Origin: Paludibacterium purpuratum
GTDB lineage: Bacteria; Pseudomonadota; Gammaproteobacteria; Burkholderiales; Chromobacteriaceae
Direction of reading: 5' to 3'
DNA: 64,000 nt
Assembly: GCF_004363805.1 (NCBI RefSeq)
Contig: NZ_SNZP01000005.1
Span: 183,990-247,989 of the forward strand
A program made the position numbers and the translations under genes. Positions 7,024-17,505 of the stretch are shown here, piece by piece (positions within the stretch are counted from its first letter, which is position 1; each line of letters starts with the position of its first letter). Below the pieces are notes generated by a model. That model saw only the letters and a program-made list of their open reading frames with translations. It did no database searches and was not told the DNA's origin.

Positions 7024-7099
7024 TGGTGGGTTGTGAAAGGCTCGAACTTTCGACCTACGGATTAAGAGTCCGCTGCTCTACCAACTGAGCTAACAACCC
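7024..7099 (-). tRNA. tRNA-Lys (anticodon CUU), copy 1
   Basis: The 76-nt gene includes the encoded CCA. The acceptor stem is GGGTTGT/ACAACCC, the D-arm contains AGCTCAGTTGGTAGAGC, and the anticodon loop reads C-U-CUU-A-A, giving Lys. The T-arm pairs GAAAG with CTTTC. It differs from copy 2 only by a compensated base pair in the acceptor stem (T-A instead of C-G). Confidence 0.95.
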
Positions 7100-7123
7100 G
7101 ATATTGCTGCGCAACCGGAAAGG

Positions 7124-7199
7124 TGGTGGGTCGTGAAAGGCTCGAACTTTCGACCTACGGATTAAGAGTCCGCTGCTCTACCAACTGAGCTAACGACCC
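7124..7199 (-). tRNA. tRNA-Lys (anticodon CUU), copy 2
   Basis: This 76-nt gene with encoded CCA has acceptor stem GGGTCGT/ACGACCC and the same D-arm, anticodon loop (CTCTTAA) and T-arm as copy 1. The two lie 24 nt apart on one strand and are probably processed from one transcript. Confidence 0.95.
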
Positions 7200-7358
7200 C
7201 CTTCTGGTATACCGCACTGTTTTGTCGTTGCCGACAAACCAGAGAGCGGAATTCTAATCGCCAGACCGTAACCTGTAAAGCCCCTGACGGAATTTTTTTC
7301 GAAAGTGCGCGCGAACTCATCGCAGCAATCGACTCGGAGACCAGGGACAAGGAACAGT

Positions 7359-7388
7359 AAAAACAAAAAAACCAACCGCAAGGTTGGC
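7359..7388 (-). terminator. Terminator after tRNA-Lys(UUU)
   Basis: On the minus strand CCAACC-TTGC-GGTTGG (7387-7372) is followed by a run of T residues broken by one G. It lies 22 bp downstream of the tRNA-Lys(UUU) gene and separates it from the CUU pair. Confidence 0.75.
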
Positions 7389-7409
7389 TATTTTCTGGCA
7401 AATACTGGT

Positions 7410-7485
7410 TGGTGGGTCGTGCAAGATTCGAACTTGCGACCAACGGATTAAAAGTCCGCTGCTCTACCGGCTGAGCTAACGACCC
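7410..7485 (-). tRNA. tRNA-Lys (anticodon UUU)
   Basis: This is a 76-nt gene with encoded CCA. The acceptor stem is GGGTCGT/ACGACCC, the anticodon loop reads CTTTTAA (anticodon UUU), and the T-stem pairs GCAAG with CTTGC. It has its own promoter and terminator. Confidence 0.95.
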
Positions 7486-12319: not shown

Positions 12320-13588
12320 TCACTCCTCGACAGTGCGACGGGAGAACTTGATGCCCAGTTGTTTCAACTTGCGATACAGGTGAGTGCGTTCCAGACCAAC
12401 CTTCTGCGCCACGCGGCTCATATTGCCGTTTTCCAGCGAGATGTGGTACTCGAAATAGCGCCGTTCCAGTTGCTCGCGCAGTTCGCGCAGCGGCAAATTG
12501 AAGTCGAAGCCGGTCTCCTCGATCGGCTTCTCGTGGCGGAATTGCGCCAACACCTTGTTGACCGCCGGCGCATCGATGTCGTCGGACTCGGCAGTCAATG
12601 CCAAGCTCTTGATGATGCTGCGCAACTGTTCGAGATTGCCCGGCCAATCGTATTGCCGCAAGGCATTGAGAGCGGCGGTGGTCAGTTTGCGTGCCGGCAC
12701 CTGCTTCGACTCGACCAGTTCGGTCAGAATCTGTTCGGCGATGAAGATGATGTCCTCGGCGTGTTCGCGTAGCGGCGGAATCGGCACGATGACGCTCGAC
12801 AACGAGGTCAGCAACCGGTTGTCGCACTCCGGATCGACCAGCAGTTCCTGCAGCGGCCGGCTACACGAGCAGATCAACCGCACGTTGAAACGGTCGAGCT
12901 TGGACAGCAAAAATAGCAGACCCTGCTGAACGCGTCGGTTGTATTGACCGATTTCCGGCAGGAACAATACGCCGTTATTGGCTTTCTGCAGCAGCTCCAG
13001 CGGCGCATCCGCCAGTTGCTCCGGCTTGGCCGGGGTCACCCACGGCGTGTTGCCCTGATGGAAGAAGCGCGCGACCAATTCGAAGCCGGAACCGGACTCG
13101 CCGGTCATCAAGACCGGAGAACGAACCTTGGCGACCCGTTCCAACTGACGCTTGAGCTCCTGCACCGGCTCGCTCTTGCCCAATTTGTCGAGATTGAGGG
13201 AGGTATTGGCTTGCATGTCGCCATATTTGAGCGCGCGCTGCACGGTGGTCAGCAGCTTCTGCAAGGCAATCGGCTTCTCCAGAAAATCGAAGGCGCCGAT
13301 GCGAGTGGCTTCCACCGCGGTGTCGATGCTGGCATGACCGGACATCATCACCACCGGCATGTTCAAATGTCCCGACTTGGCCCATTCTTTCAGCAGCGTG
13401 ACGCCGTCGCAGTCGGGCATCCAGATATCCAGCAAAACAAGGGCCGGACGGGTCTGGTTCCGAAGCTGTCTGGCGACCTCGGCATTTTCCGCCAACGCCA
13501 CCGTATAACCCTCGTCCTGCAGGATTTCGGACAGCAATTCGCGGATACCGATCTCATCGTCCACAATCAAAATGTCGCTGCTACGCAC
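12320..13588 (-). CDS. ntrX: NtrX-family response regulator with degenerate AAA+ domain
   Basis: The 422-residue protein has a receiver domain (1-120, phospho-acceptor Asp54 in LLDIWMPD, Lys105), an AAA+ domain (about 140-345) and a FIS-type helix-turn-helix (about 375-420). The AAA+ core is broken. Walker A reads GESGSGFE (162-170), with Phe where Lys should be. Walker B reads FLPEIG in place of FLDEIG. About 30 residues that normally hold the GAFTGA sigma-54 loop are absent, and the sensor II Arg in WPGNxRE is Glu. It is therefore probably a sigma-54-independent DNA-binding regulator. The GTG start at 13588 follows GGAGG, 2 nt after the ntrY stop. Confidence 0.92.
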   Translation of the reverse strand: MRSSDILIVDDEIGIRELLSEILQDEGYTVALAENAEVARQLRNQTRPALVLLDIWMPDCDGVTLLKEWAKSGHLNMPVVMMSGHASIDTAVEATRIGAFDFLEKPIALQKLLTTVQRALKYGDMQANTSLNLDKLGKSEPVQELKRQLERVAKVRSPVLMTGESGSGFELVARFFHQGNTPWVTPAKPEQLADAPLELLQKANNGVLFLPEIGQYNRRVQQGLLFLLSKLDRFNVRLICSCSRPLQELLVDPECDNRLLTSLSSVIVPIPPLREHAEDIIFIAEQILTELVESKQVPARKLTTAALNALRQYDWPGNLEQLRSIIKSLALTAESDDIDAPAVNKVLAQFRHEKPIEETGFDFNLPLRELREQLERRYFEYHISLENGNMSRVAQKVGLERTHLYRKLKQLGIKFSRRTVEE

Positions 13589-13590
13589 GC

Positions 13591-15699
13591 TTAGGCCTCC
13601 AGCATTGGCAAGATGAGAAGAATACGCGCACCTTGCGGATCGGCACTCCCGAGAATGACTTGCCCTTGGTGGTCCTCTACGATCTTTTTCACCACGGCAA
13701 GCCCCAACCCGGTTCCCTTGGACTTATTGGTCACATAGGGTTCGAATGCACGGGGAAGAATATCGGCCGAAAAACCGGGACCGCTGTCTTCCACGCAAAC
13801 ATACACGTTTCTTCCTTCTAGTCGGCTGCTAATGTGAATCATCGGGTTTTCGACGTCAAGAACTGCATCTTGCGCGTTTTGTAGCAGATTATGCAAAACC
13901 TGCCGCAATAACGCCGCGTCACCCATGATCATCAGCGGACCGTCGGAAAGGTCAATCTTAACAGCAGGATTGGATTCGTAAAGCGTCATCACCTCACGAA
14001 TCACCCCATTTACATCAAGCTTTTGTAATTTGGTGCGTGGCGAACGGGCATAATCGCGGAAAGCATCGACCATCCCCTTTAGCGCCGCAACCTGATTCAC
14101 GATGGTATCGGTTGCGCGGCGCAGTATTTCCGCATCCGCCGGCGCCAGTTTATCCGCCAGCTTCATTGCTAGCCGTTCCGCCGATAATTGAATCGGTGTC
14201 AGCGGATTGCGAATCTCATGGGCCAGCCGTTTGGCCACTTCACCCCAAGCGGCATCGCGCTGCGCCCGAGCCAGATCGGTAATATCGTCGAAGACCAATA
14301 CATAGCCGGCATTGCTGAACTCCGACAAGCGCGCACCGCGGATCAACAGTGCACGTTCGCCCTGCGCCGTCGGATAATCGAGTTGGAGTTGCCAATCGCG
14401 CTGCGCCTGATCGCTGGCCTGGGTGCGTACCGTATCCACCAACATCTGCAAACTGGGAATCTGCTCGGGCCACATCGGGAAGGGCTGTTTGCCCAACTCG
14501 TCGAAGTCGACGTTCAGAATGCGGGCGGCGCTGATGTTGAATGCCCTCAGATCCCATCCTGCGTCGAAGGCGATCACGCCGGCCGATAGATTGGCCAGAA
14601 TACTCTCAAGGTAGATTTTACCGGCCTCCAACTGGCGGTGATTTTCTTCCGCCAGCTGGCGCGCCTCGTCCAATTGCCGGGTCATGCGGTTGAACATCGA
14701 GGTCAGCATGCCCAATTCGTCGCGCCGGTAGACTGGATGGCGCCGCGAGAAGTCGCCCTGGGCCACGGCGCGCGTGGCGGCGGCCAATTCCAGCAATGGC
14801 GCGGAAAAGCGCTCAGAAAGGAACAGTGCGAAGGCAAGCGCCAGCGTCAACGCCAGCAAAAAGGCCAGCGCCAATGTCAGCATGTAGAAGGTTTTCAGGC
14901 CATGCCGATTGAACAGTAGACCACGGTAGTCGGAGCGTGCGCTTTCGATCAAATCGGCGTCGCGAGCGATGCTCTCCGGCGCGCTTTGCTGCACCATCAG
15001 CACCCGCACACTATCGTCCGGCATACGGTAGCCGAGCAGTACTTTCAGCAATAGCCCGCTCTGGTTTTCGTTTTCGATGCTATCCACCGATTGCATCGGA
15101 CTGATCGAGCGCAGCACATCGCGCGATGGCGGCACTGGCCGCCGCACGCCTGGCGTCCCGGAATAGCCCACTAGGCCACCGTCGCGGTCGTAGATGGCGA
15201 TCTGACGTAATGCCAGTTGCTCGCGCATGACATCCAAGCGGCCGGGCAGTGCCGCGTCGTCCAGGCCCTGCAGGTTCTCCTGCACCACGTGCCCCTTGCG
15301 ACTGACGTCCTGCAGCACGAACCCCAGGGCATTGCGCCCCAGCGCCAGCCCACGGTCAAGTGCGGACTCGACCCGAACGTCGAACCAGCTTTCGATACTG
15401 CCGGTCAGGAACTGGGCGGAAATGGTAAAAATCAGCACGCCCGGTACCAGCGCCACTAATGCGAACATCACCACCAGCTTTTGCGTCAGCTTGGCGCCGA
15501 ACATCCGACTACGTACTCGCGAGCGCAACCGCAGCACCTGACGCCCCACCACCCCGACCAGGGCCGCCAACAGCAGCGTATTCAGGCCGAACACCCACCA
15601 GTAGTAGGCCTCGAGACGGCTGGCGTTGCCCGTGGCGATCGCCAGCAGATACAACATAATGGCCGCGACCGATGCGACGGCGATCACGGCATAGGGCAT
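13591..15699 (-). CDS. ntrY: NtrY-type membrane sensor histidine kinase
   Basis: The 702-residue kinase has three N-terminal membrane helices (about 3-23, 34-54, 74-94), a periplasmic sensor region (about 100-265), a fourth helix (about 271-293), HAMP (about 293-345), PAS (about 360-475), the phospho-acceptor His494 in HEIRNPLTPIQ, and an ATPase domain with DSGPGF and GTGLGLAVVKKI. It pairs with the downstream ntrX. In related bacteria NtrYX influences nitrogen use, redox or respiratory enzymes. Its start overlaps the DUF4390 stop by one base, so translation is coupled. Confidence 0.94.
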   Translation of the reverse strand: MPYAVIAVASVAAIMLYLLAIATGNASRLEAYYWWVFGLNTLLLAALVGVVGRQVLRLRSRVRSRMFGAKLTQKLVVMFALVALVPGVLIFTISAQFLTGSIESWFDVRVESALDRGLALGRNALGFVLQDVSRKGHVVQENLQGLDDAALPGRLDVMREQLALRQIAIYDRDGGLVGYSGTPGVRRPVPPSRDVLRSISPMQSVDSIENENQSGLLLKVLLGYRMPDDSVRVLMVQQSAPESIARDADLIESARSDYRGLLFNRHGLKTFYMLTLALAFLLALTLALAFALFLSERFSAPLLELAAATRAVAQGDFSRRHPVYRRDELGMLTSMFNRMTRQLDEARQLAEENHRQLEAGKIYLESILANLSAGVIAFDAGWDLRAFNISAARILNVDFDELGKQPFPMWPEQIPSLQMLVDTVRTQASDQAQRDWQLQLDYPTAQGERALLIRGARLSEFSNAGYVLVFDDITDLARAQRDAAWGEVAKRLAHEIRNPLTPIQLSAERLAMKLADKLAPADAEILRRATDTIVNQVAALKGMVDAFRDYARSPRTKLQKLDVNGVIREVMTLYESNPAVKIDLSDGPLMIMGDAALLRQVLHNLLQNAQDAVLDVENPMIHISSRLEGRNVYVCVEDSGPGFSADILPRAFEPYVTNKSKGTGLGLAVVKKIVEDHQGQVILGSADPQGARILLILPMLEA

Positions 15700-16292
15700 C
15701 AGCTACGTCCTTTCATGTCCAGCGCGACCCAATTGGAGCCAAGTGTCCAGTCGGCGGAGCCCAGGGCGTTGAGCTGAAAGGGTTTGGGCAATTCGCTGAT
15801 GTCCAGCACCAGTCGCACGCGACCCGCCACCTGATCGGGCGTATCGCCCGACAAGGTGCCGGCATTGAGGACGCGCCAACTTTGGATCGCACCGATGGCG
15901 CGCATGGCGTCGTTCAGACTGGCGTAGTAATTGGAGAACGAACCGATTGTCACACGGTAGCGGTCGGTCAACGGCTGATAGGACAATTTGAAGATGATGC
16001 TGGCGTGCGGCGCGAACCACTGACTGAGGTTCAGGTAATAGGCGGTGGTGCGCGGCCGGGTCAATTCGAATTCGAGCCGGAAAGTCAACGGGACGCCCTG
16101 TGTGAGCGCCTCGCTGAGACCGGGAGGCAACTTGATGCCGAAACGGGTGCTAATGGCGAGCTGTCCATCGACTAGCTCGGCCTCGGCACGGCGGGCACTG
16201 ATGCTGTCTGCCCAAGCGAAATGGGATAGACAAACCAGCAGGCACACCAGCCAGCTAACGTTTCTCAAGCAGCGCGTAATAAAAGCCGTCAT
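15699..16292 (-). CDS. DUF4390 exported protein upstream of ntrYX
   Basis: The 197-residue product has a signal peptide (about 1-28, ending FAWA) and a beta-rich mature region containing ISTRFGIKLPPGLSEALTQGVPLTF and LNLSQWFAPHASIIF, typical of DUF4390. The ATG at 16292 lies inside the 3' end of rsmB (38-nt overlap), and the stop overlaps the ntrY start. This arrangement between rsmB and ntrYX is conserved in betaproteobacteria as far as I recall, and suggests a periplasmic accessory of the NtrY sensor. That role is inferred only from position. Confidence 0.85.
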   Translation of the reverse strand: MTAFITRCLRNVSWLVCLLVCLSHFAWADSISARRAEAELVDGQLAISTRFGIKLPPGLSEALTQGVPLTFRLEFELTRPRTTAYYLNLSQWFAPHASIIFKLSYQPLTDRYRVTIGSFSNYYASLNDAMRAIGAIQSWRVLNAGTLSGDTPDQVAGRVRLVLDISELPKPFQLNALGSADWTLGSNWVALDMKGRS

Positions 16293-17505
16293 GGCATTCA
16301 GTAGGCAGTAGTTGTTCTTGACCCAGGCAATGCGCATCCGCGCGGCGCTGCAAGAAGGCCAACAATTGCTGCGAGTTTTCTTCTGGATAAATCGAGCACG
16401 TAGCGTAAAGCATTTTACCGGACGGCGCGAGTAAAGGCCAAAGTGCATCCAGCATCCGTGCCTGCTGGCGCGCAAACGAGGCAAAATCCTCCGGTCGGCG
16501 CAACCAACGGATGTCCGGATGTCGCCGTACCACGCCCGAAGCGCTGCACGGCACATCGGCCAAAATACGATCGAACGGCTTACCATCCCACCAATCCTGC
16601 GGATGGGAGGCATCGCCGGTCAGCAGCGTGGCTTGCAAGCCAAGGCGGTCGAGGTTTTCGCTCACCCGTGCCAGCCGTTCGCCATCGATGTCCAATGCCG
16701 TCAGCGCCAGGTCGGCCTGTTCAAGCATGTGGCAGCTCTTGCCGCCCGGGGCGGCGCAGGCGTCCAGAACGCGCATGCCGGCCTGCAGATCCAACCGAAC
16801 AGCCGCCTGTTGCGCCCCCCAGTCCTGCACCGACACAACCCCCTCGGAGAATCCCGGCAGCTCGCGCACCGACATTGGCCGCGCCAGCCGCACTGCGACC
16901 TCGTCCAGAGCCTCGGCCTCGATACCCGCTTCGGCCAGCCGCGCCAGGAAGGTCGGCATATCGGTCAAACGACGATTGATACGCAAGGTCATCGGCGGGT
17001 GGTTGTTATCGGCCGCGACAATGGCCTGCCAATCGGCCGGGTAGTGTTGTTGCAGTGCCTTTAGCCACCAAGCGGGATGGTTGCAGCGTGCCTCGTCGTT
17101 CTCCGCCACCGCTTGCATCAACGCCTCGCGACGACGTAAAGCATTGCGGAGCACACCGTTGACCAGGCCTTTGAAGCGGCCTCGCGCTTGCATGCCGGCG
17201 AGATGCACGGCTTCGTTGACGATGGCGTATTGAGCTGTCCGACTGTAGTAGAGCTGATAGAGCGCGACGATCAACAGATGCTCGAGAAAAGGCAGCGGAA
17301 TCGTATTGGGCACCAGTTGGCGCAGCACCAGCCGTAGTTCGGCCCAGTGCCGCATCACCCCGAAGGCGATATCCTGGATCGCACCGCGCTCCTGCGACGT
17401 CAGATTCGGCGCAGAGCGCCAACGGGCCGCCAGCGCCTCGGTGAGGTTTTTGCCGTCGGCGACCTGTTCGACCGTCAAGGCGGCCAGTTCCTGAATGCGA
17501 TGCAT
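16255..17505 (-). CDS. rsmB: 16S rRNA m5C967 methyltransferase RsmB
   Basis: The 416-residue enzyme methylates C967 of 16S rRNA. An N-terminal NusB-like RNA-binding domain (about 1-140) precedes a Rossmann methyltransferase with the SAM motif DACAAPGGKSCH. It has both catalytic cysteines, in DVPCSASG and YATCSIYPEE. The start at 17505 follows GAAGAAGG. It heads the tight cluster with DUF4390, ntrY and ntrX, and its 3' end overlaps DUF4390. Confidence 0.95.
   Translation of the reverse strand: MHRIQELAALTVEQVADGKNLTEALAARWRSAPNLTSQERGAIQDIAFGVMRHWAELRLVLRQLVPNTIPLPFLEHLLIVALYQLYYSRTAQYAIVNEAVHLAGMQARGRFKGLVNGVLRNALRRREALMQAVAENDEARCNHPAWWLKALQQHYPADWQAIVAADNNHPPMTLRINRRLTDMPTFLARLAEAGIEAEALDEVAVRLARPMSVRELPGFSEGVVSVQDWGAQQAAVRLDLQAGMRVLDACAAPGGKSCHMLEQADLALTALDIDGERLARVSENLDRLGLQATLLTGDASHPQDWWDGKPFDRILADVPCSASGVVRRHPDIRWLRRPEDFASFARQQARMLDALWPLLAPSGKMLYATCSIYPEENSQQLLAFLQRRADAHCLGQEQLLPTECHDGFYYALLEKR

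Follow-up and report, generated by a model that had tools for sequence, protein, structure and literature searches.

A long-established pseudo-AAA+ domain in the response regulator NtrX of Paludibacterium purpuratum points to sigma-54-independent regulation

Several described systems come close to the regulator examined here. NtrX of Brucella abortus (PDB 5m7n/5m7o/5m7p) has a receiver-AAA+-HTH architecture in which GAFTGA is missing, and it keeps the Walker A lysine and the Walker B Asp-Glu and has been solved with ATP/ADP. In Neisseria gonorrhoeae, ntrX mutants show altered expression of respiratory genes (PMC12697260, PMC8445170), and PDB entry 3co5, titled as a sigma-54 interaction domain, is an exact match to residues 132-272 of gonococcal NtrX, its isolated AAA+ core. 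Bordetella PlrR and Herbaspirillum NtrX, in which the AAA+ domain is wholly absent, belong to the same beta lineage as the protein described below and share the gene order rsmB-plrP-ntrY-ntrX (PMC13001219); a statement in that paper, citing Bonato 2016, has beta-proteobacterial NtrX lacking the AAA+ domain. Finally, GAFTGA-less bEBPs that act at sigma-70 promoters have been documented (PMC10274813).

We analyzed ntrX in a window of 64,000 nucleotides from P. purpuratum (contig NZ_SNZP01000005.1). All coordinates are positions in this window, and all features given lie on the minus strand. The ntrX gene (12320..13588) encodes a 422-residue response regulator, assigned from its open reading frame and Pfam domains, with orthology taken from gene order and a tree. 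Its frame is intact, starts with GTG and lies 2 bp downstream of ntrY (13591..15699), a gene for a membrane sensor kinase that adjoins ntrX in nearly all loci checked. The preliminary description had considered this kinase intact, in agreement with the HAMP, PAS, HisKA and HATPase domains found in it by Pfam. Further upstream are a gene for a DUF4390 periplasmic protein homologous to PlrP (15699..16253, start approximate; PF14334, 141.1 bits), whose role as PlrP is taken from PMC13001219, and rsmB for a 16S rRNA methyltransferase (16255..17505; Pfam, conserved gene order). The window thus reads M48 peptidase (htpX-like)-rsmB-DUF4390-ntrY-ntrX-ThiF family, which contains the rsmB-DUF4390-ntrY-ntrX order of a beta-type NtrX orthologue. 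In nearly all loci ntrY is directly upstream of ntrX, and DUF4390-rsmB precedes it where enough upstream sequence is available. Among the gamma NtrX orthologues, of ~420-463 residues (mostly ~455), nearly every locus likewise carries ntrY upstream, and most loci whose sequence reaches far enough also show DUF4390/rsmB. In a tree computed from NtrY and the receiver only, with the AAA domain left out so that the trait plays no part in building it, beta NtrYX formed one clade (SH-aLRT 100) and the P. purpuratum NtrX grouped inside it. A scan of the window for the published operator pattern GCA-N9-TGC gave 34 matches against ~16 expected under uniform base frequencies, and none in the htpX-rsmB gap, an uninformative outcome. 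The window also holds three consecutive tRNA-Lys genes (ctt, ctt, ttt) at 7024-7485.

The two ends of the protein are retained. The receiver domain (residues 6-116; 13241..13573) matched Response_reg PF00072 with 100.7 bits, and the phospho-acceptor D54 (13427-13429) was found when the residue was checked in the translation. The Fis-type HTH_8 DNA-binding domain (residues 371-411; 12356..12478) matched PF02954 with 27.3 bits against a cut-off of 22, so that both elements claimed as retained in the preliminary description are indeed there. Between them, residues 133-273 (12770..13192) form a degenerate AAA+ core of the Sigma54_activ_2 type; PF14532 matched residues 136-273 with 142.9 bits (cut-off 25) and covered positions 1-138 of its 138, and the Pfam domain AAA_lid_14 follows at residues 274-353. 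The preliminary description had listed four lost elements in this domain, and the alignment bears out each of them. The Walker A remnant GESGSGFE (residues 163-170; 13079..13102) has Phe169 in place of lysine; the Walker B remnant FLPEIG (residues 209-214; 12947..12964) has Pro211 in place of aspartate; the sensor II remnant WPGNLEQL (residues 315-322; 12623..12646) has Glu320 in place of arginine; and the stretch at residues 178-200 (12989..13057) is shortened by ~30 residues relative to the gamma orthologues, with the L1/GAFTGA loop gone. The position of the first arginine finger is occupied by D256 (12821..12823), where the gamma orthologues have FREDL, and this constitutes a fifth, additional loss. 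Of the features of an NtrC-class bEBP, NtrX keeps the centrally placed AAA+ fold, flanked by receiver and Fis HTH, as seen by Pfam and in the predicted fold, and lacks the Walker A lysine, the Walker B aspartate, GAFTGA, the finger arginine and the sensor II arginine. The best library match was NCBIfam NF051870, at 284.6 bits under a curated cut-off of 600 bits; because that model describes a protein of 452 positions, we placed NtrX among the beta-type orthologues and kept it out of the equivalog.

The AF2 model of NtrX had pLDDT values mostly of 84-95 in the core, with the receiver and linkers poor and a pTM of 0.51. The predicted core superposed on AAA+ activators with Z up to 21 and on 3co5 with Z 17.2 at 49% identity, and Brucella NtrX was the best full-length structural match. 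Taken together with the lost motifs, these matches suggest that the fold has been kept while the engine is gone.

To define how far these losses extend, the motif positions were compared between beta and gamma NtrX orthologues drawn from many families, five strongly diverged gamma sequences being excluded from the gamma counts. The Walker A lysine is present in 2 of 62 beta sequences versus 32 of 34 gamma sequences, and the sensor II arginine in none of the 62 versus 31 of the 34. The first Walker B aspartate is found in 0/62 beta and 7/34 gamma orthologues. At finger 1, 33/34 gamma sequences carry arginine whereas 56/62 beta sequences carry Asp or Glu, and this reversal to an acidic charge is conserved and not random drift. 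Phe169 is invariant in Neisseriales, and Gly163, Glu164 and Gly166 of the P-loop are mostly retained. GAFTGA, on the other hand, was seen in none of the aligned gamma orthologues, which indicates that its loss predates the beta lineage; the preliminary description was therefore right that the motif is absent here, but this loss is older than the others with which it had been counted. Two beta sequences of one family (L182 and L238, f38) have a Walker A lysine (GEPGAGKR, GEPGVGKS) within the otherwise lysine-less clade, and both are without the Walker B aspartate and the sensor II arginine. One NtrX from a 1.4 Mb genome (L200, f25) is extremely diverged, its domain being barely recognizable. 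At matched receiver divergence (65-75% identity), identity in the AAA core was 34% in beta versus 52% in gamma and in the lid 37 versus 60, whereas the HTH was equally conserved (61 versus 63). This difference shows that constraint was relaxed only in the motor.

The absence of several essential motifs together could in principle reflect a sequencing error or ongoing decay of ntrX in one genome. However, ntrX was found in 61/61 genomes of the family Chromobacteriaceae at 88-99% identity with the losses shared, although one poor assembly has the gene in two pieces, and the trait occurs throughout the beta lineage. Ratios of dN/dS (NG86, 50 distinct Chromobacteriaceae sequences) were lowest in the receiver (0.008), alike in the dead core (0.058) and the HTH (0.064), and highest in the lid (0.126), values that are rough because synonymous changes in the receiver are near saturation (median dS ~1). 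With dN/dS of the order of ~0.05 across the family, we give decay or error practically no weight, and an artefact or pseudogene was rejected on the grounds of family-wide presence and purifying selection, the relatives alone already refuting it. The preliminary view that the losses represent adaptation and not decay is thereby upheld. The conserved core residues are mostly structural Gly, Leu, Pro and Trp. Since nearly all beta relatives share the disabled motor, the dead-motor NtrX is, on this comparative evidence, a real, selected, long-established and clade-wide state rather than a quirk of one genome. The gene in two pieces (G044:C3:1170996-1172262) consists of overlapping parts with a stop in one, in an 80%-complete assembly, and probably reflects a frameshift error.

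In a draw of 349 genomes from the same GTDB order, 328 had an NtrX match at E<=1e-45, and the extracted sequences fell into two classes, one of ~420 residues with the degenerate domain and one of 211-264 residues with receiver and HTH only. The preliminary suggestion that the trait may be shared by Neisseriales is correct as far as its presence there is concerned, but the trait is not confined to that group and is ancestral to the beta-proteobacteria. Indeed, the distribution places the fixation of the pseudo-AAA+ state at the base of the beta-proteobacteria, as read from the sequences sampled. In other beta orthologues the AAA domain has been excised while receiver and HTH are retained, and nearly all AAA-less relatives keep the HTH core ERTHLYRKL. 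Parsimony gave three changes to the AAA-less state on the full tree and four on a reduced tree. In an AU test built on a quick tree, for which the trait rather than the tree determined the AAA-less group, a single origin was rejected (p-AU 0.016), while joining one separate AAA-less sequence (L207) with the large AAA-less clade was compatible with the data (p 0.41). With one origin rejected and two not rejected, at least two excisions took place, and the full tree gives three under parsimony. Within a single genus (g42, family f33), one genome keeps the pseudo-AAA+ NtrX (L206) and another has the domain excised (L228), a pair that suits dating of the deletion. From the motif states in gamma, Brucella, beta and AAA-less forms, the likely order of loss is GAFTGA, then in part the Walker B aspartate, then the lysine, the sensor arginine, the finger arginine and the ~30 residues, and then the domain. 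In the literature searched, which had key subscription papers outside its reach, we found no description of such a staged dismantling of the NtrX motor, and we claim no priority for it.

A rival explanation is that the motifs were lost following the loss of sigma-54 in the lineage, and the report that sigma-N is nonfunctional in N. meningitidis (PMC6755734) is in line with such a sequence of events. An rpoN look-up proposed in the preliminary description speaks against it, as rpoN is present in P. purpuratum, so that the trait is not tied to its loss; across the order, 321/349 genomes have it. The P. purpuratum genome also contains ten other strong sigma-54 activator matches; as a control of the motif search, a regular expression found GAFTGA or GAYTGA in 6/10 of these, and the remaining 4 gave no regex result and scored >200 bits with PF00158. 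Moreover, the motif loss maps to the beta-proteobacterial base. Loss of rpoN as the cause was accordingly rejected, and the sequence of events itself is very improbable. NtrX appears instead to have lost the ability to activate sigma-54 while the cell kept its sigma-54 system. Genomes of one family (f40; G099, G142, G178 and others) had neither an NtrX match nor rpoN in a PF00309 search. The effects of ntrX mutations in the gonococcus, together with the state of sigma-N in the meningococcus, in which no GAFTGA-containing bEBP is known (PMC6755734), support sigma-54-independent action of NtrX, although this reasoning spans two species. Such action, proposed in the preliminary description, remains the best inference.

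We consider it most likely that NtrX is a phospho-switched, sigma-54-independent DNA-binding regulator in which the pseudo-AAA+ domain would act structurally, either as a spacer or as a module for dimerization. NtrY would phosphorylate D54 of the receiver, and phosphorylated NtrX, probably as a dimer, would bind DNA through its Fis-type HTH. It would then alter transcription at sigma-70-type promoters, where it would either recruit RNA polymerase or block it, with no ATP hydrolysis and no ATP-driven remodelling of sigma-54. The GAFTGA loop, which contacts sigma-54, went first, and the catalytic and ring-contact elements followed in the beta stem, while the pseudo-ATPase fold would have been retained as a scaffold that connects receiver and HTH; several beta lineages later excised the domain, leaving a short linker to bridge the two. 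The receiver-plus-HTH orthologues indicate that the AAA domain is dispensable. However, a role as scaffold only is weakened by the strong conservation of the core within the family (dN/dS 0.058), and with Gly163, Glu164 and Gly166 mostly kept, NtrX may bind nucleotide without hydrolysing it.

Another reading of this conservation is that the pseudo-AAA+ domain senses a ligand: a nucleotide or second messenger would be bound at the dead nucleotide site, or elsewhere on the domain's surface, and so tune the binding of DNA. The purifying selection on the fold and on part of the P-loop (G163, E164, G166) is consistent with it, and among the structural matches to the model are the c-di-GMP-binding proteins VpsR and FleQ. 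Yet the lysine, the Walker B aspartate, the finger arginine and the sensor II arginine are all absent, no ligand motif was identified in the domain, and its rate of evolution is well above that seen in the gamma orthologues. Its deletion in other lineages further argues against a universally needed ligand, and we regard the reading as unlikely. Somewhat less doubtful, and put forward tentatively, is the broader idea that the domain gained a new job, be it ligand sensing, a new partner or a dimer contact, marked by the acidic finger and Phe169, and that proteobacteria keep a graded series of ATPase-like, pseudo-ATPase and excised forms in one orthologous regulator. The series from gamma (GAFTGA gone) through beta (pseudo-ATPase) to AAA-less NtrX is a natural experiment in which the motor was removed and the regulator kept, and it allows direct tests of the remaining role of the dead domain.

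In relation to known systems, the published account of beta NtrX without AAA+ is true for a set of families, and it is refined here in that most sampled families keep the dead domain. The label of NtrX as a sigma-54-class nitrogen regulator is very likely wrong in beta-proteobacteria, including Neisseria. Alignment with N. gonorrhoeae NtrX, as the preliminary description had proposed, showed an orthologue with 59% identity in which the same motifs are missing. Brucella NtrX shares with the P. purpuratum protein the absence of GAFTGA, but the latter has in addition lost the Walker A lysine, the Walker B Asp-Glu and ~30 residues. Whereas Bordetella PlrR and Herbaspirillum NtrX have no AAA+ domain, the P. 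purpuratum protein retains a dead one. Rhodobacter capsulatus and Caulobacter NtrC and Vibrio cholerae VspR are GAFTGA-less bEBP relatives reported at sigma-70 promoters (PMC10274813); these comparators are NtrC or VspR and not NtrX, and ATP binding is reported to be important for R. capsulatus NtrC. NtrX of P. purpuratum belongs to an already known kind, represented by the AAA-less beta NtrX proteins, 3co5 and, probably, the GAFTGA-less sigma-70 regulators.
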